This document shows positions 39,202-49,385 of a DNA stretch of 64,000 nucleotides, in pieces. The DNA lies in NCBI GenBank assembly GCA_029762625.1, contig JARVGI010000001.1, positions 372,001 through 436,000 of the forward strand. The letters run 5' to 3'. The notes beneath the pieces are model-generated. The model saw only the letters and a list, made by a program, of their open reading frames with translations, had not been told where the DNA came from and did not search any database. The position numbers and the translations under genes are program-made. The first letter of the stretch is position 1. Every line of letters begins with the position of its first letter. This stretch comes from Methanomicrobiaceae archaeon (lineage in GTDB: Archaea; Halobacteriota; Methanomicrobia; Methanomicrobiales; Methanomicrobiaceae).

Positions 39202-41892
39202 CTATTCCTCGAACCGTGCCAGCGTGAATTTGATGGCGAGCCCTTCGGAGGATTTCCCCGAGACGCGATCTTCGGCCCAGATCGAGCCGCAATAGCGGTC
39301 GATCAGGAGGCGGCACACATAGAGGCCGAGGTTTCTCCCCCCGGCCCTCGGGCTTTGCAGACGCGAGAGATCGAAGATCGCGTGTTTTTCCTCGTCGGAG
39401 ATACCCGGCCCGGTATCCTCCACCGAGACGATAATGAGCCCCTCCCGTTCTTCAAGGGTGATGGAGATCTGTACGTTTGGCCCGCCGTGCCGTAGCGAGT
39501 TGTCGATGAGATTGGTGAAGACACACGCCAGCATGCCATCGGCGATCACGGTAAACCCGCAGGGTTCGAAATCGACAGTATCAGGAGGGAATTTGGCCAT
39601 CTCGGTCTGGATAACCGAATCGATGTCGATGGGTTCGAGCGATTCCGGATCGGTCTGGAGCCTGCGCAGCACCGAGACATTGGTGATGATCTGGGAGATC
39701 TGCCATGATGTCGTCCGCAACTTCTGCCCGTAACTTTCCGCATTCCCGAGAAGCATGCCGGAGATGACCTCGGATAACCCCGACAATTCATTGGCCGCCC
39801 GGTTGATGTCATTCTCGATGACATCGAGGTAGACGTTCATCTCCCCGTACGCGTCCTCGAGTTGCTCCTGCAGCATCCCGCGAAGAATCGTGCCGCCGAT
39901 CTCTTTTCCCACGGACTCGAGCACGGTCTTTTCCCGCTCGGAAAGCTCCACCTGCTCTTTTCTCCCCACGTAGAGCGCGCCGACCACCACCGAATCGGCA
40001 ATCAGCGGTATGCCCGCGTAACTGAGGGCGTCCACCGCTTCGAGAATGCGACAATCGAACATTCCCGGCGGGTTGTCGGGGAGGTTTTCCACGAAACGGG
40101 GCTGGCCCGCGAAAAAGATGACATTGTAGGGATAGTCCCTGATGACAAGCGTGGCGTTCTCCTCCACAAACGACTCGGGGACACCGTGGTGGGCAACGAG
40201 GCGGGCGCGTTTATCGGTGTGCTTCAGGTAGACCCACCCGAAATCGAAATCCAGCAAATCCACGGTAATGGTGAGGATGATCTCCAGCATCTCGTCGAGA
40301 ATAAGCGATGAGTTCGCCACCCGGATGATCTGGTTGATGATGGAGAGATGCCGGTTCTGGGAAAATATTTCCTTTTCAGCCTTCTTCTGGCTGGTGATAT
40401 CCCTGCAGATGGCGATGGTCGCACGTTTGCCCTCGAAGATGATGGGAAGTGTCCTGAGTTCAATATCCACGACCTTCCCGTCGAGCCGGACGAACTTCTC
40501 CTCGGCAACAGGAAATCCCGTGCGGTCGAGATACCCCGTGCGCATCCGCTCCCACGCCAGATCGCGATAATCCCTGTGAATGAAATCAAGCGCATACCTG
40601 CCGAGAATGTCATCTGCCTTCCCTGCCCCCAGTAGTGCCACTCCCGCCGGGTTGGCATAGACGATCTTTGCTTCGCAGTGCACATAGATCGGTTCGGGAT
40701 GGAGTTCGACGAGGCTCCGGTACCGCTCTTCGCTCTCCCTTAATGCCGCCTCGAACTGTGTGCGTTCGGTGACGTCGACCGCAATGGCCGCAACATGCTC
40801 CACCCCGCCCTCGCTCCCGAAGACGGGGTAGAGTGTCCGGACCAGCTCTTTTTTTCCATCTTTTCCCTCAAACCGGACCGAATTGCCCGTGTCGAGTACA
40901 TGTTCCACATAGGCGCGCAATTCCCCGGCAGCACCCTGCGGCAGAAGGCTGTATATGGAGTGCCCCGCAACAGTCTCCGATGGTTGGCTGAATTTCCTGG
41001 AAAGGGCTTCGTTGGCAGCGAGAACCGTCCCTTCCTTATCGATGAGAAAGGCCTCCTCCGGGATGGCGTTCATGAATACCCTGAGTATCGCATTGCGGTC
41101 ACGGAGCGCGGCCGATGCCTGGTGTATGTCGGTGACATCTCTGGCAATCCCCTCGAACCCACAATAATTGCCGCCGTCGTCCCTGAGCAGCGAGAGGTTC
41201 AATAGCACCGGAAAGACGCGCCCTTCTCCTTCCCGCGCCTGCATCCTGCACTCGAAATTATGAATGGTGCCGCAGGATTCCTCGATCCGTAACAACGTTG
41301 CCGCGAAGGCTTCGCAATCGTCCGGGTGGATGAAATGGAAAATCCGGGCAGAACCGCTGCCGTCTGCAGGACATTCAAGCACTGCCCGGCCTGATGTGTT
41401 CAGAAAAAGAAATTCTCCCGCCGGATCGCAGCGAAAAATGATATCCCCGGTATGTTCCACCAGGCTCTGGTAGTGTTCCCGTGAGCGATGGAGCAGTTTT
41501 TCTGCGGCGTTCCGATCGATTGCGTACCTGATCGCTCGCCGCAGGAGCGGGGGCGTGATCTCGCCCTTGGCGAGGCAGTCCCGGGCGCCCTCCATTCCGT
41601 GCTCAAACGCACCGTTCCCACTACCATCCGCGATGAGCACGATCAGTGGAATATCGGAAAAGCGCGTCCGCACTCCCAGGACGACAGCATCCGCCCGGTG
41701 TCCCTTTCGGTTCAGACCGAGCAGGATCACATCGGGGCGCGAATCGCCGCATCCTTCGGGCACCTCCTCAAGACATGCGCACCATGTCACCTGCGCCTGC
41801 AACCCGCACCCGCATTCGCCCAGCATCTCACGAACCAGCGTCGCATCCCCTGGATCGTCCTCGATGAGCAGGACCGAGACAGTCGCATTCAT
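39202..41892 (-). CDS. Degenerate hybrid kinase: pseudo-receiver, 3 PAS, GAF, HATPase
   Basis: This 896-residue cytoplasmic protein has, in order, a receiver-like domain (5-122), three PAS domains (about 135-250, 262-380, 388-505), a GAF domain (about 520-660), a helical dimerisation region, and a HATPase (about 780-890). The receiver has Gly59 (LLGLN) where the phosphorylated Asp should be and has lost the switch Thr. The H-box equivalent reads YLDVIENDINR, with Asn694 where the neighbouring paralogue has His. The ATP-binding N-box (VFTNLIDNSLRHG) and G-boxes are mostly kept. The start is an ATG; a GTG three codons earlier is possible. Confidence 0.9.
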   Translation of the reverse strand: MNATVSVLLIEDDPGDATLVREMLGECGCGLQAQVTWCACLEEVPEGCGDSRPDVILLGLNRKGHRADAVVLGVRTRFSDIPLIVLIADGSGNGAFEHGMEGARDCLAKGEITPPLLRRAIRYAIDRNAAEKLLHRSREHYQSLVEHTGDIIFRCDPAGEFLFLNTSGRAVLECPADGSGSARIFHFIHPDDCEAFAATLLRIEESCGTIHNFECRMQAREGEGRVFPVLLNLSLLRDDGGNYCGFEGIARDVTDIHQASAALRDRNAILRVFMNAIPEEAFLIDKEGTVLAANEALSRKFSQPSETVAGHSIYSLLPQGAAGELRAYVEHVLDTGNSVRFEGKDGKKELVRTLYPVFGSEGGVEHVAAIAVDVTERTQFEAALRESEERYRSLVELHPEPIYVHCEAKIVYANPAGVALLGAGKADDILGRYALDFIHRDYRDLAWERMRTGYLDRTGFPVAEEKFVRLDGKVVDIELRTLPIIFEGKRATIAICRDITSQKKAEKEIFSQNRHLSIINQIIRVANSSLILDEMLEIILTITVDLLDFDFGWVYLKHTDKRARLVAHHGVPESFVEENATLVIRDYPYNVIFFAGQPRFVENLPDNPPGMFDCRILEAVDALSYAGIPLIADSVVVGALYVGRKEQVELSEREKTVLESVGKEIGGTILRGMLQEQLEDAYGEMNVYLDVIENDINRAANELSGLSEVISGMLLGNAESYGQKLRTTSWQISQIITNVSVLRRLQTDPESLEPIDIDSVIQTEMAKFPPDTVDFEPCGFTVIADGMLACVFTNLIDNSLRHGGPNVQISITLEEREGLIIVSVEDTGPGISDEEKHAIFDLSRLQSPRAGGRNLGLYVCRLLIDRYCGSIWAEDRVSGKSSEGLAIKFTLARFEE

Positions 41893-41902
41893 TGCATTCA
41901 CA

Positions 41903-42343
41903 TCATGGCAGTTTTACGATCGACAACCAGAAATTCTCGATCGAATGCACAACATGCAGGAATTGCTCCAGATCGACCGGTTTGGTAATATAGCAGTTCG
42001 CATGCAGGTTGTAGGTCCGGGCGACATCCTCTTCCGCCTGGGAAGTGGTCAGGACAACCACCGGGATGCTCTTCAAATCCTCATCATCCTTGATCTCGGC
42101 GAGCACCTCTCTCCCGTCTTTTCTGGGCAGATTGAGGTCCAGGAGAATGAGATCGGGCCGGGGAGCCCCCGCATATTCACCCTCTTTTCTCAAGAACGCC
42201 ATGGCTTCCTCGCCGTCCATGACGATATGCAGGTTGTTTCTCACCTTGCCCTCCCGCAAAGCCTCCTTCGTCAACCGGACATCGCCCGGATTGTCCTCGA
42301 CAAGGAGGATCTCGACATGCTGTACCCCCGCATTCACACTCAT
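41903..42343 (-). CDS. Stand-alone response regulator receiver protein
   Basis: This 146-residue single-domain receiver resembles Rcp1-type regulators paired with PAS or phytochrome-like kinases. The acidic pair (VEDNPGD), the phosphorylatable Asp in [13 protein letters not shown], the switch Thr in VVVLTTSQ and the Lys in YITKPVD are all present. It overlaps the upstream kinase gene as ATGA and is the probable partner of that kinase. There is no output domain. Confidence 0.95.
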
Positions 42344-44511
42344 ACGTGATCGCCCACCTCTCTTATAGGGATCGTGAAAAAGAAGGTCGAACCCTCACCC
42401 GGCTCCGACGCCACCCAGATCCGACCCCCGTGCCGTTCGATGATCCTCTTGCATATCGCAAGACCGATGCCGGTGCCCGCATACTCCGCCTTTGAATGGA
42501 GGCGCTGGAAGATGACGAAGATACGGTCGAAATACTGCTGCTCGATGCCGATCCCGTTGTCCTTCACCGAAAAGACCCATTCATCGCCGGACTGCTGTGC
42601 GCTCACGTGCACGCGGGGCGCATCGCTGCCGTGGAACTTGATGGCGTTGCTGATCAGGTTCTGGAATACCTGCGACAGCTGGGATGTGTCCGCCATCACC
42701 ACGGGGAGCGGGTCATGGGTCACCAGCGCATCCGATTCCTCGATCTGGATTTTCAGGTTTCTCAGCGTCTGTCCGAGGAGGGTTTCCGTGTCCGTTTCTT
42801 CAAAGGGCTTGCCCCTCGTGCTCACGCGGGAAAAGGCCAGCAGGTCATTGATGAGCAGCTGCATCCTGCTCGCTCCGTCCACCGCATAATGAATGAACTC
42901 GTCTGCGTCCTCATCGAGCCGGCCTTCATAGCGGCGCTTGAGCAGCTGCACGTAACTGGCCACCATGCGCAGCGGCTCCTGGAGATCGTGGGACGCCACA
43001 TAGGCGAACTGTTCGAGCTCCTCGTTTCGCAGTTTGAGATCGCGTGCATAGGATCGCAGCTGGGCTTCCGCTTTTTTTCGCTCGGTGATGTCTCGTCCAA
43101 TCGAGGAGGCCCCGATGACCCTCCCCGCGGCATTGGTGATGGGGGAGATGGTGAGGGATACATCCATGATCGATCCGTCCTTTCTGACCCGCTGCGTCTC
43201 GAAATGCTCCAGACGCTTCCCCTGCCGGATCGTGTTCAGGATCATCTCCGTCTCGCCCGTGCGGTCCTCCGGCACAAGCATGGAGATATGGTTCCCGATC
43301 GCCTCATCCGCCCTATAGCCGGTATTGCGCTCCGCACCGCGGTTCCAGCTGAGGATAGTGCCGTCGAGGGTTTTTCCGATGATGGTGGCGTCGGACGATT
43401 CGACGATCGAGGCCAGAAAGGAGTGCTCTTCTTCTGCCTCCTTGCGGTTGGTGATATCCGTAAAACTCCCGTCCACACGCAGCACCGCGCCGGTTTCATC
43501 AAGCGTGGGGCTGCCGGAATTGTGCACCCAGCGCACTGTGCCGTCTTTTCGCACCACCCGCTCTTCAACGGAGTACGGCCTCCCCTCATTGATGCGATCG
43601 ATGATGTGCCGGCGGGCGTGGCGGTCATCCTCGTGCACGATCCCCTCCCAGAGATCGGGGTGATCCCGAAATTCACCGGGACCATACCCGAAAAGGTCCC
43701 GGCTTTTCGGGCTGATAAACGTCGGGCGCAGGGAACGGTCCAGAGAATACACCACGACCGGCACATTCGCAATAATCGATTCCGTAAAAATGCGGGTTTC
43801 CTGCAGAGAGCGTTCGACTTTTTTCTTTTCGGTGATGTCGAGAAACGAGATCACAAGGCCTTCATTCTCACCGGCACCGGCGATTGTCAGCAGCACGTCC
43901 ACGCATCCCCCGTCACGGCGGACGAACAGTGTCTCACACTGGGCCGGCACGAAGCCGCGTCCCTGCATGCGGCCGGCCAGATAGTTCGCGATGCGGGACC
44001 TTTCACCATCAGCAATGAAACCGGTCAATTTCCGGCCGACCATCTCGCTGCCAGGATACCCAAGGATAGTTTCCATTTCGTAATTTGCCTGCCTGATGCG
44101 CCCCTTTTTGTCGAGAATCGCCGTTGCCGACCCGATATGCTCGAAAATAGTACGGTACCGCTGTTCTTTCCTCGAAAGGCTGGAGGCGAGAGTGGCAATC
44201 ACGCCGCTGACGACCAGAAACACGCCCGAGCGGGCACATGCCTCGGGAAGTGTTTCGGCAGGATCGGGTGCCAGCACCACGACAAGGGCAAGGTACCCGG
44301 CACTCAGCGCCGCCGTGAACAGGACCCCGCGACGGTTGTACCAGTAGGAGGCAAGGATGATGGGAATATAGAAGACGTGAGAATAGATCGTGGTAACTCC
44401 CCTCGAGAGGGCGACGGCATTCACGCATACTGCCAGCAGGGAAACAAGCAGGAGAATGAAGCGCTGCTGCCCCGACGTGAGCCGCAGGTCCATCGTAAAG
44501 GGGGATGGCAT
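42340..44511 (-). CDS. Membrane PAS sensor histidine kinase
   Basis: This 723-residue protein has four N-terminal membrane helices (about residues 15-110). Three PAS domains follow (about 118-235, 245-365, 372-490), then a HisKA domain with intact H-box ([15 protein letters not shown]) and an intact HATPase ([31 protein letters not shown]). It autophosphorylates on His and probably passes phosphate to the following receiver. The ATG at 44511 lies about 30 nt after a CTATATAC box; an ATG six codons on is possible. Confidence 0.92.
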
Positions 44512-44642
44512 AAAAAAAAATGTATTTGACGATGTATATAGATGATCACCAATGAATGCGGCACTCCGGATCGCCGAAACCCTGCCGGGCCACACCGGGA
44601 GAGCAGCAATGAAGCGCAGTCGGAAAACCGGGGTATTTTCGT

Positions 44643-47600
44643 TTATTCATCAAGCGGAACGAGGGTAAAGCGGACTGCTGCCCCCTCCGAGTGCTTGCCG
44701 GGAACGCGGTCCTCGATCCAGATTGATCCGCAATACCGCTCGATGAGCAGGCGCGCGATATGGAGGCCGAGGCCCCTTCCGCTGGCCTTTTGTGAATTTC
44801 TTTGAAATACGGTAAAGACGGCCTGTTTTTGCTCGTCCGGGATGCCGCACCCTGTATCCTCCACGGAGACCAGCACTTTTCCGTCCATTTCCTCCGCTTT
44901 CACGACGATCGTCACATCAGGACCCCCGAATTTGATGCTGTTGCCGAAGAGGTTGGCAAAGATCTCGGCGAGGAATTCGTCGGCAATCACCGTATACCCG
45001 GTAGCTTCAAACGAGATCGAGGCATGGCCGAACCTCTGCATTTCGGCGCGTATGAGAGGATCGAGTTCCACCTGCCCCAGATCAGGAGGCATATCGTTGA
45101 TTCTTCGAATCACGGCCACATTGTTGATGATCTCCTTGCCCCTTGCGATGGTGTCCTCGATTTTTTGCGCATAGAAACGCGCCTGACCATCGAGCATCTC
45201 CCCGATTATGCCCGTGGTAACACAGAGATCATCATGGATTCTCAGCATGTCATGCTCGATAATGTCAAGGTAGCAGCTCATCTCGTCATATGCCTCCTCG
45301 AGCTGATCCTGCAGTATACCGCGTAAAATCGTACCCCCGATCTCTTTTCCGATAGATTCCAGCGTTGACCGCTCATTTTCCGAAAACCGGACTTCTTCGC
45401 GTCTCCCGATATAGAGCGCACCCACGACCACGGATTCTGCAATGAGGGGAATCCCCGCAAACGAAAGTGCGTCCACATCCTCCATGATGCGCGACTCGAA
45501 TATGCCGGGCGGGTTGTCGGGCAGGTTCTCCACAAACCGGGACTGACCGCCATAAAAGACGATGTTGTAGGGATGATCCCGGACACCGATTGTCCTGTCA
45601 CGGTCCGCAAAGGATTCGGGCACGCCATAGTGCGCGACCATCTCGGCGGTCTTGCCGTCCCGGTTTTTCAAATAGACCCACCCGAAATCGAAATCAAGCA
45701 GATCCGCCACGATTTCAAGAATGATCTCAAGCGTCTCGTCGAGAATCAGGGACGAATTGGCGACACGGATGATGGTATTGATGATCGAGAGGTGCCGGTT
45801 CCATTCACGTATCTTATTCTCCACGCTTTTCCGGCGGGAAATATCACGGACAATTTCCTGGGTGGCGCGCGTGTCGTCGAAGAGCACCGGGACGGAAGCC
45901 ACCTCGATGTCGAGCACGCTCCCGTCGATGCGGACGAGTTTTTCCTCCACGAGAGGGGTGATCGCCCGGTCAACGTAACTTCTTGTAATACGGTTCCCCA
46001 GCGCCCTTCTCGATTCCCGGTCAAAAAAGTCGCATACACGTTTACCGATGAGATCCCCGGCAGACTCCACGCCGAAGAGATCCACCGTTGCGGCATTGCC
46101 ATACAGGATCCTGCCGTCGCTGTGCACGAAAATCGCCTCGGGTGAGTGCTCGACCAGCGACCGATACCGTTCTTCGCTTTCCCGCAGTGCACGCTCCATC
46201 TGCAGTTTTTCAGCGATATCACGGGCGAATACCGAAATGCCATCGAGGGACGGGTAGACGGTCCATTCAACGAGGGCGCTCGTACCGGGGAGGGGGCGCT
46301 CGTCGATCATGCTCCGCGGCGTGCCGTCCTCGAGCACGTCCCCGCAGAGCCGAGCAAGTACGGTCGGTGAGGAGGGGAGAACATCCATTAATGATTTCCC
46401 AATCGCTGCCTCCGCCGAAACACCGATAAGACGCTCTGAAGCCGGATTCCAGTAGGTGCACCGCAGATCCCCGTCCAGCGCAAAGAAGATATCGGTGATG
46501 CTGTCTGCAAGCTGGCGATACTTCGCCTTGCTTTCCATAAGAACCTGTTCCGCCACTTTACGTCCGGTGATGTCGCCGGAGATGAATGCGATCTGCTCCA
46601 CTGCGCCGTCCGAACCGGTGATGGGAAAGAGGCACTGCTCGAACCAGCAGGCCTCGACCTGATCCTCATAGACAACGGTGCTATTGGATTGGATGGCCTC
46701 TTCGAGGTGTGTTTGCAGGCGTTCGAGGATCGGGCCCGGACAGAAGGAGAAGAGGTTCGCACCGGCGCCGTCTTCAATCCCGAAATGCTTCTTAAACGCC
46801 GTGTTTGCGGCGAGTATCTTCCCGTCCGTGCCAATGAGGACCGCATGCTCAGAAATGGCATTCATGAACGCCGACAGGATCTGCTCCCGCTCGATCAGTT
46901 CTTTCTCTGCCCGTTTTTTCTCGGTACAATCGATACTCTGGATGACCATGCCCCCCGGTACGCCGCCGTCATCCCGCAGCACCTCCCACGAACTCGAGAG
47001 GTACACGAGTTTACCGTCTTTTCGTCTCGCCCGGCACTCGACGTTCCGCATGCCTTCGCCGGTGGCAAAGGATCTCCGTACGAGATCCTTGATCATTTCG
47101 ACATCGTCCTCGTGGAATACCCCGAGGATAGCGCCTTCCAGTTCTTCCTGGGAATACCCGGTCACATCCCTGCTATTCGGGCTGACATACCGGATCTTTT
47201 TCTCCTCGTCGAGAATGAACAGGACGCTCGGCGCTGTTTCCACGATAGTCCTGAACCTCTCCTCTGATTGCTTCAGGTTCTCGGCGATCTTTGTTTTTTC
47301 CGTGACGTCAATGAACGATACATACACCCTCGACCAGCGCTCGTCCTCGCCGGGTGCAAGGGAGAGGCGCATGATCGACTCCTTTCTGGAGCCCTGCAGT
47401 GCCGTGAATGTAAGTTCACCCTCAAACACCGATCGGCCCTCCCAGAGCGCAGAGAATGCGGAACATAACAGCGGATGGATGTCGCCGGAGAAGATGCCTT
47501 TCAGGCGGTTCGCGAGGTGCTCTTTATTCTCCGCTTCAAACATCGTGCAGCAATGCTCGTTCATCTCCACAAGGCGCATCATGGAAACGAAATTCCCGAG

Positions 47601-48971
47601 CACGTGGGGGCGGCCGGCGAGATAGCTCCCGATATCGTGCACACCCGATGCGTACAGGATATCAAGGCACAGCCTGATGTCTGAAAAATCCAGTTCAAAT
47701 AATGAAAACGGCGAGTATTCGAACAGATTCTGGTACCGCTTCTCGCTCAGGCGCAGTCTGCTCTCGTCCTCTTTCTGGCGCGTGATATCCGTGATCGTCC
47801 CGATCATCCGGAGAGGTATGCCCGATTCGTCACGCGCAATAACCTGCCCCCGGGCCAGCATCCACCGCCACGTGGCGTCGGCTGCGCGAAGGCGGAATTC
47901 CATCTCGCTGCATCCCCCCCCGTGCTCACGGGCACGTTCAAGTGCCCGGGTGACCGGCTCTTCGTCTTCGGGGTGGAGAAGCGGCATGAGCGAATGGCAG
48001 GTCGGATCGAACTGGCCGGAAGAGTACCCGAGTCCTGTATAGAACGACCTGCTCAACTCCAGGCCCCATGTCGCCAAATCCAGCTCCCAAAGAGACTCTT
48101 TAGAGGATTCGAGAACAATTTGAAGGCGGAACTCATTCTCCAGGAGGTGCTGTTCAACCATTTTGCCGGGGGTGTTGTCCACAGCAGAGAGCACACAACA
48201 GCCGGTGCCAGGCATTGCACCCGCAACGACGAGCACAGTCCGATAGGGCCCTTCCCTGTGCTTCAATTGCAATTCATGGATATCCGGGGGGATACACAGG
48301 TCGCTGTGCCCGGGGCGGGGGTACGCAAACAGCCTCGTTTTATCCTCCCCACCCACGATGTCAAAAAGCGCCAGTTTTCCTTCCACATCTTCTCGTGCAT
48401 AGCCAAGCAGCTGGCAGAATGCCGGGTTCGCAAGCACGATGCGCGTATCCCTGTCGAGAACGATCGTGCCCGCCCCGGAGTGTTCAAACATGGTGCGGAA
48501 CAGTCCCTCGGGAACCGGGTCAGGATCCCCGGTACGCGGTTGTCCTCCCAGGTCCAGCCCTGTTATCATCATATTTTCCGTACGCGGGATAAGGGCGGTG
48601 GTAATGACGGTGGTATGCAATCCCCCATGCCGGTCAATAATGCGTATTTCAGACATCCGGGGAGAATTCGATGGATCTTCCTTCATCGATTCATGGAGAT
48701 GCACCACCTTTTCAAGGTCATCTTTTCCGATGAAATCAGCAATATTCTTCTTTCTCTCGACTTCAGCGCGGGAAAAGAGCAGTGCACGGGCAAACGCATT
48801 GTTGGCAAACAGTACTGTTCCCCTTCCATCGACCACCACGATTCCTGAGGGAAGTGTATCGAGCAGCAATCGATACGCATCATCGGATGTGCCGAAAATA
48901 TGTTCCTGCTGCGACCGCATTGCATCAAGATCTTCTATCGCATCCATTCCAATTAACCCCGGGTATCGCAC
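44643..48971 (-). CDS. Giant cytoplasmic kinase: 8 PAS, GAF, HATPase
   Basis: This 1442-residue protein has about eight consecutive PAS domains, then a GAF domain and a kinase core. No membrane helices are seen. The H-box equivalent is YLDIIEHDMLRI with His1240, and the HATPase keeps IFANLFGNSIKF, VEDTGCGIPD and GRGLGLHIARL. From the last PAS onward it closely parallels the hybrid kinase at 39202. The GTG at 48971 is chosen because AAGGAG lies 6 nt upstream; an ATG eight codons later is the alternative. The family usually senses redox or small ligands through PAS cofactors; the signal here is unknown. Confidence 0.9.
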   Translation of the reverse strand: MRYPGLIGMDAIEDLDAMRSQQEHIFGTSDDAYRLLLDTLPSGIVVVDGRGTVLFANNAFARALLFSRAEVERKKNIADFIGKDDLEKVVHLHESMKEDPSNSPRMSEIRIIDRHGGLHTTVITTALIPRTENMMITGLDLGGQPRTGDPDPVPEGLFRTMFEHSGAGTIVLDRDTRIVLANPAFCQLLGYAREDVEGKLALFDIVGGEDKTRLFAYPRPGHSDLCIPPDIHELQLKHREGPYRTVLVVAGAMPGTGCCVLSAVDNTPGKMVEQHLLENEFRLQIVLESSKESLWELDLATWGLELSRSFYTGLGYSSGQFDPTCHSLMPLLHPEDEEPVTRALERAREHGGGCSEMEFRLRAADATWRWMLARGQVIARDESGIPLRMIGTITDITRQKEDESRLRLSEKRYQNLFEYSPFSLFELDFSDIRLCLDILYASGVHDIGSYLAGRPHVLGNFVSMMRLVEMNEHCCTMFEAENKEHLANRLKGIFSGDIHPLLCSAFSALWEGRSVFEGELTFTALQGSRKESIMRLSLAPGEDERWSRVYVSFIDVTEKTKIAENLKQSEERFRTIVETAPSVLFILDEEKKIRYVSPNSRDVTGYSQEELEGAILGVFHEDDVEMIKDLVRRSFATGEGMRNVECRARRKDGKLVYLSSSWEVLRDDGGVPGGMVIQSIDCTEKKRAEKELIEREQILSAFMNAISEHAVLIGTDGKILAANTAFKKHFGIEDGAGANLFSFCPGPILERLQTHLEEAIQSNSTVVYEDQVEACWFEQCLFPITGSDGAVEQIAFISGDITGRKVAEQVLMESKAKYRQLADSITDIFFALDGDLRCTYWNPASERLIGVSAEAAIGKSLMDVLPSSPTVLARLCGDVLEDGTPRSMIDERPLPGTSALVEWTVYPSLDGISVFARDIAEKLQMERALRESEERYRSLVEHSPEAIFVHSDGRILYGNAATVDLFGVESAGDLIGKRVCDFFDRESRRALGNRITRSYVDRAITPLVEEKLVRIDGSVLDIEVASVPVLFDDTRATQEIVRDISRRKSVENKIREWNRHLSIINTIIRVANSSLILDETLEIILEIVADLLDFDFGWVYLKNRDGKTAEMVAHYGVPESFADRDRTIGVRDHPYNIVFYGGQSRFVENLPDNPPGIFESRIMEDVDALSFAGIPLIAESVVVGALYIGRREEVRFSENERSTLESIGKEIGGTILRGILQDQLEEAYDEMSCYLDIIEHDMLRIHDDLCVTTGIIGEMLDGQARFYAQKIEDTIARGKEIINNVAVIRRINDMPPDLGQVELDPLIRAEMQRFGHASISFEATGYTVIADEFLAEIFANLFGNSIKFGGPDVTIVVKAEEMDGKVLVSVEDTGCGIPDEQKQAVFTVFQRNSQKASGRGLGLHIARLLIERYCGSIWIEDRVPGKHSEGAAVRFTLVPLDE

Positions 48972-49385
48972 GGTTCGCTCCTTGCGGCACGATTCTCCGA
49001 CAAATGGCAGAAATACTATAATAGAACCTATATTTTTGTGCAATTTATATTTATTTACATGAGGTATTTATTATAATACTATCAACATCTGATTTCTGCC
49101 TGGCCTCGCACGGACTGCCGCAGACAGGGCATACAATGGTTCTGTTTTCAAGAAGAAATACCGCAACGAAGATATAATATTTAAAGCCCGGAATAAAGGC
49201 CGTTCCAGGTTTCATCGCAGGATAGGGTTGCATTGGCTGCAAAAACTGCAAAAAGTTACTGGTTTTTGAAAAGGACCGCATCCCCGGGAAATCTGCCCCC
49301 CACGCAGAATCCGGCACCCTGAACCGTCGAGCCGGCACCGCCGCGCCGCACCCGGCAGGGGGGGGACTCATACCGAGAGCTGTTG
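48972..49385. other. Intergenic region upstream of the giant kinase (414 nt)
   Basis: The right half is GC-rich with no clear coding. The left 150 nt are AT-rich and contain TATA-like sequences (ACCTATATTTT near 49026 and TTTATATTTAT near 49044) suitable for the kinase gene. On the minus strand at 49061-49147 a short reading frame encodes a zinc-ribbon-like CPVCGSPC segment without a standard start codon. Confidence 0.5.
49061..49147 (-). pseudogene. Possible zinc-ribbon gene remnant
   Basis: The frame reads VCPVCGSPCEARQKSDVD and ends SIIINTSCK before a TAA. The first Cys cluster and the following SDVDSIIIN resemble the N-terminus of small archaeal zinc-ribbon proteins, but the second Cys pair is cut off by stops. 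The codon where Met would be is ATT. A TTTAAATATT box lies about 25-30 nt upstream. It may be a decayed gene or chance. Confidence 0.25.

Follow-up and report, generated by a model that had tools for sequence, protein, structure and literature searches.

What can a sensor kinase do once it has lost the histidine it would phosphorylate, when the genes beside it encode intact kinases and an intact receiver? The question is raised by a gene in a 64,000-nucleotide stretch of a Methanomicrobiaceae archaeon contig (JARVGI010000001.1, positions 372,001 to 436,000; hereafter the window), for which the original prediction had proposed a hybrid kinase lacking both phosphorylation sites. We find that its product is a cytosolic, conserved pseudo-histidine kinase (hereafter the pseudokinase), and we consider below how it arose and what it may do.

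Gene organization

The reading frame is open over 39202-41901(-) with a GTG start, while the ATG at 41892 is the start common to the pseudokinase and both of its orthologues. From N to C terminus the domain order is REC-PAS-PAS-PAS-GAF-DHp-CA (Table 1). The gene is the last of a cluster of four on one strand, in the order HK1466 (His), HK751 (His), REC146 (Asp) and pseudokinase. The neighbours are intact at the codon level: CAT at 45252-45254 encodes the His of HK1466 (in IEHDM) and GAC at 42137-42139 the Asp of the adjacent single-domain receiver REC146, both as first reported, and CAC at 42988-42990 encodes the H-box His of HK751. HK1466 has an Arg four residues after its His. The four-gene order is the same in the window and in G002, one of two further genomes of the genus; the contig of the other, G001, starts inside the first gene and is otherwise the same. 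HK751 shares its last 4 bases with REC146, whose stop is followed 10 bases later by the pseudokinase ATG, a spacing of these three genes that suggests a single transcript.

Table 1. Features of the pseudokinase gene, its cluster and a second His-less hybrid of the same genome.
Feature	Position	Strand	Basis or remark
Pseudo-histidine kinase CDS	39202..41892	-	896 aa from ATG; in-frame GTG upstream at 41901
N-terminal pseudo-receiver (REC), residues 5-127	41512..41880	-	Pfam Response_reg 16.1 bits, cut-off 30.2
Gly59, codon GGT, at receiver phospho-Asp position	41716..41718	-	codon reading and alignment
Three PAS domains, ~residues 137-512	40357..41484	-	Pfam PAS_4, PAS_9, PAS, three stretches each
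GAF domain, residues 522-669	39886..40329	-	Pfam GAF_2 E=2.9e-12; 72% identity to HK1466 GAF
DHp-like two-helix segment, residues 670-767	39592..39885	-	no His; AlphaFold2 core-model helices 136-196, 202-231
Asn694, codon AAT, at H-box His position	39811..39813	-	codon reading and alignment
CA (HATPase_c) domain	39217..39591	-	HATPase_c PF02518 63.9 bits, cut-off 26.4
REC146, single-domain receiver, Asp69 intact (LLDLN)	41903..42343	-	Response_reg 73.2 bits
HK751, PAS-HisKA-HATPase kinase, His536 intact	42340..44595	-	HisKA 47 bits, HATPase_c 103.8 bits
HK1466, multi-PAS-GAF-DHp-CA kinase, His1264 intact	44643..49043	-	domain search, trees
Second His-less hybrid, 521 aa, REC-GAF-DHp-CA	L143:10858-12420 (G000 C21:378217)		Gln at His site

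The kinase core

Re-reading of the codon confirmed AAT, and hence Asn694, in place of the H-box His. The H-box helix is present and alignable, the His alone being replaced, and a reading of the whole DHp region (residues 670-787) revealed no other His as a candidate phosphoacceptor. Because the DHp has no His, phosphate on a DHp histidine is impossible for this protein. The claim that its ATP-binding motifs mostly remain proved generous: the N box (NLIDNS) and G1 (DTGPG) are both intact, but the F box has Ser843 for its Phe and G2 has Asn854 for its second Gly (GGRNLGL versus GRGLGL in relatives), sites at which nearly all relatives keep Phe and Gly. Compared with a histidine kinase, the protein has a HATPase_c domain with N and G1 boxes and lacks the H-box His and intact F and G2 boxes; as expected of a pseudo-histidine kinase, the fold is kept, the phosphoacceptor His is lost and the loss is conserved in the orthologues. 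The case for a pseudokinase is strong.

An AlphaFold2 model of the 380-residue core, built from 49 alignment rows, reached a pLDDT of 84 and comprises a GAF fold, a 61-residue helix leading into a second helix of 30, a DHp hairpin and a CA domain. When this model was used as a Foldseek query, many histidine kinases were matched, and of the 50 listed, chain B of DivL (4q20) ranked first by target-normalised TM-score (0.80, 2.9 A). The match shows that the kinase fold is kept and does not indicate a partner, the DHp-CA fold being general.

The receiver-like domain and the age of the losses

The GGT codon of Gly59 at the receiver Asp position was likewise confirmed, and the switch Thr is absent as claimed, Ile87 standing at that site. 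The acidic pair (EDD) and Lys109 are still present; with phospho-Asp and switch Thr/Ser both missing, the domain scores below the Response_reg (PF00072) cut-off. As far as the sequence tells, phosphate uptake on the receiver Asp is impossible in the window species. Receivers without the Asp account for 2% in bacteria and 10-15% in archaea (PMC12632262), and, according to PMC5847659, up to 40% of the receivers of archaeal N-terminal REC hybrid kinases might escape phosphorylation. Other N-terminal receivers of the order (L051-L056) keep the Asp and have lost acidic-pair residues (LLIGKS, LLIGAS).

The orthologues came from three genomes of the genus (window, G001 and G002), all draft assemblies, and each has a full-length orthologue with an open reading frame; the two others are 91% and 79% identical to the window protein. 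At the kinase site Asn is found in all three, within an invariant IENDI motif. At the receiver site the window and G001 have Gly and G002 has Asp, with a receiver score of 53.0 bits; in all three, Ile has taken the place of the switch Thr. The conservation that the original prediction proposed to check therefore holds for Asn (3/3) but only partly for Gly (2/3), and of the two canonical residues Asp was recovered in one orthologue and His in none. The idea that the two losses are linked and equally old is not supported, as G002 keeps the receiver Asp and the switch-Thr loss alone is common to all three receivers. Since the G002 orthologue has Asp, the change to Gly59 came later, on a receiver that is evolving fast.

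When dN/dS was calculated per domain among the three genus members by the Nei-Gojobori method, the pseudokinase receiver gave 0.36-0.55 and the PAS domains 0.15-0.33, against 0-0.06 for the GAF, 0.13-0.14 for the DHp and 0.06-0.20 for the CA domain; the controls REC146 and HK1466 gave 0.07-0.11 and 0.08-0.18, respectively. Between the window and G001 the GAF is identical across all 148 residues. Given the low ratios of the core and the high ratio of the receiver, we conclude that selection keeps the His-less core while the receiver is loosening. Together with the fixation of Asn in 3/3 genus members, this purifying selection on the core bears out the pseudokinase reading, and the constraint on GAF, DHp and CA rules out a pseudogene.

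Relation to HK1466

The nearest paralogue of the pseudokinase within the genome is HK1466, with 55-59% identity over the shared core. Between the two proteins, identity is 72% in the GAF domain and 49% and 42% in the two DHp helices. A tree groups the two proteins with a support of 82/79, so that HK1466 is probably the sister paralogue, with moderate support; that the pseudokinase was born by duplication of HK1466, the first kinase of the cluster, is supported by the tree though not proven. Both proteins have the PAS-GAF-DHp-CA arrangement, whereas HK1466 has His1264, intact F and G2 boxes and no receiver. Given the divergence of the DHp helices, dimerisation between the two could have been lost. 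Gene conversion with HK1466 was considered as a cause of the conserved GAF and found no support, the identity between pseudokinase and paralogue being 72% in both species compared versus 91-95% between orthologues.

Proposed role and alternatives

The reading that we favour, with belief and doubt about evenly balanced, is that the pseudokinase works in the manner of DivL, as a regulator that does not itself phosphorylate and acts on the operon's intact kinases and receiver. DivL of Caulobacter crescentus (PDB 4q20) also combines multiple PAS domains with a DHp-CA core. According to the available text of PMC4211667, it carries Tyr at the His site, where its orthologues, too, all have some residue other than His; it has neither kinase nor phosphatase activity, acts by binding a phosphorylated receiver, and works alongside intact kinases and a single-domain receiver, as the gene setting here suggests for the pseudokinase. 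There are differences as well. DivL is bacterial and has Tyr, not Asn; the same text describes it with no GAF and no N-terminal receiver, whereas the pseudokinase has both, and with the H, N, G1, F and G2 motifs kept except for the His, whereas F and G2 are degraded here. Partner binding has been demonstrated for DivL and is predicted for the pseudokinase. The combination of N-terminal receiver, sensor domains and kinase core recalls the archaeal N-terminal REC hybrid kinases (REC-PAS/GAF-HK), for which the accessible portion of PMC5847659 does not describe a loss of the kinase His too, as in the pseudokinase.

By analogy with DivL (PMC4211667) and from the paralogy with HK1466, we infer a mechanism with sensing through GAF and PAS. 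The nearly invariant GAF would sense a ligand that is the same as, or similar to, that of HK1466, and the signal would then run along the unbroken helix to the DHp bundle that lacks the His. At the surface of this bundle REC146 or HK1466 would dock or dimerise, and the pseudokinase would raise or lower the flow of phosphate from HK1466/HK751 to REC146 while standing outside that flow itself, an action resembling that of DivL. Of the scaffold or partner role originally suggested, the pseudokinase part is supported, and a putative partnership with the neighbours is suggested by operon structure and paralogy. An ATP-regulated partner role is possible, though the ATP lid is degenerate.

The main rival, which we consider unlikely, is an ATPase-type kinase that phosphorylates another protein and not itself, as proposed by comparison with RdmS/MsmS (MA_type 2) of Methanosarcina acetivorans, which are also sensor kinases of an archaeal methanogen and also have no His to accept phosphate. 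RdmS can bind ATP and hydrolyse it but does not phosphorylate itself (PMC11784639), and N and G1 are intact in the pseudokinase. ATP binding, demonstrated for RdmS, may occur in the pseudokinase as well. The loss there of the F-box Phe and second G2 Gly, however, argues against efficient phosphotransfer. Moreover, MA_type 2 proteins are defined by the absence of the entire H-box region, whereas the pseudokinase keeps it as an archaeal YLDxxxHDI-type helix with one substitution.

It is quite unlikely that the pseudokinase is a phosphatase-type regulator whose His-less DHp strips phosphate from REC146. In phosphatase-competent HisKA kinases the residue four after the His is usually Asn or Thr. 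The pseudokinase has Arg there (NDINR), which argues against this role even though the phosphatase activity of HisKA-type domains does not require the His (PMC12632262) and the REC146 gene adjoins its own. We regard as very improbable the supply of a CA domain in trans, by which the pseudokinase would phosphorylate the His of HK1466 within a heterodimer: close paralogy, high GAF identity and the common operon would suit such a pair, but the ATP lid of the pseudokinase is degenerate and HK1466 owns an intact CA domain, so that a donor is unneeded. Finally, a decaying duplicate heading for loss, with no present function, is largely refuted already and scarcely credible, since the fast receiver (0.36-0.55) without Asp and Thr is outweighed by a frame open in 3/3 species, the 148 identical GAF residues (window versus G001) and DHp and CA ratios of 0.06-0.20.

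His-less kinases elsewhere in the order

Counted from the sequences, 25 of the 30 HATPase_c places in the genome are histidine kinases, and the H-box His is missing in two of these, the pseudokinase and the 521-aa protein at C21:378217, whose receiver has Asp, Thr and Lys and whose CA domain has a disturbed N box and G2. In a bacterial survey, 0.9% of HisKA domains were His-less (PMC12632262). The GAF clade of the family includes Gln at the His site in three genomes and Arg/Lys in two; the proteins L020 and L022 (G004, G005) are PAS-PAS-GAF-DHp-CA kinases with Arg or Lys at this site and KRGLGL as G2. On the tree of the clade, the His site must have changed state at least twice, and a topology that unites the eight His-less rows was not rejected (p-AU 0.069). 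Separate losses of His within the clade are suggested by this tree, not proven, and one loss followed by a regain in HK1466 is formally possible.

We also scanned 231 genomes of the order for the DNA motif of a non-His H-box, then read the frames and kept only matches in a kinase frame. The scan yielded many chance matches. It covers only codons starting with A, G or T and needs intact flanks, and it therefore undercounts. A separate scan of genome contigs gave 8 loci, mostly from genomes already in the sample. A separate PAS-PAS-DHp-CA family of ~500 aa (L147:8415-9911, L151-L180) was found in 30 genomes of genus code g19 and also in g18, g20 and g21. Its His site is Thr in 29 of the 33 loci read and Asn in the other 4, with G1 in 33/33, a simple N-box pattern in 29/33 and a simple F-box pattern in 23/33; the GLGL-type G2 in 33/33 was a filter condition and hence is not independent evidence. 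Most genomes of a different taxonomic family retain these Thr/Asn kinases, whose ATP-site motifs are for the most part preserved, and no two-component neighbours were seen around L147. One genome only has a membrane kinase of CHASE4-HAMP-DHp-CA architecture in which Tyr occupies the His site (YLDVLLYDI; L104:1089-2825). A literature phrase search for His-less archaeal kinases found nothing direct.

Pseudo-histidine kinases are known from bacteria and hardly studied in archaea, and the pseudokinase is one more of that sort. Functions have been established for few of them, for the most part bacterial proteins like DivL, and a review of 2025 was aware of no archaeal pseudo-receiver whose function had been studied in print (PMC12632262). 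In the present case a single protein, conserved across species, unites pseudokinase and pseudo-receiver. Its operon also encodes an intact receiver and the probable parent kinase, itself intact, and the cluster is a small complete protein set for asking how an inactive kinase controls an active one in archaea. More tentatively, and with doubt prevailing, the Methanomicrobiales may have repeatedly converted His-type sensor kinases into His-less signalling proteins (with Asn here, Gln in a second hybrid of the genus, Arg/Lys in relatives and Tyr in one genome, and the Thr/Asn family). If so, archaeal two-component networks would contain a lasting tier of control that works without phosphorylation, or without phosphorylating histidine.
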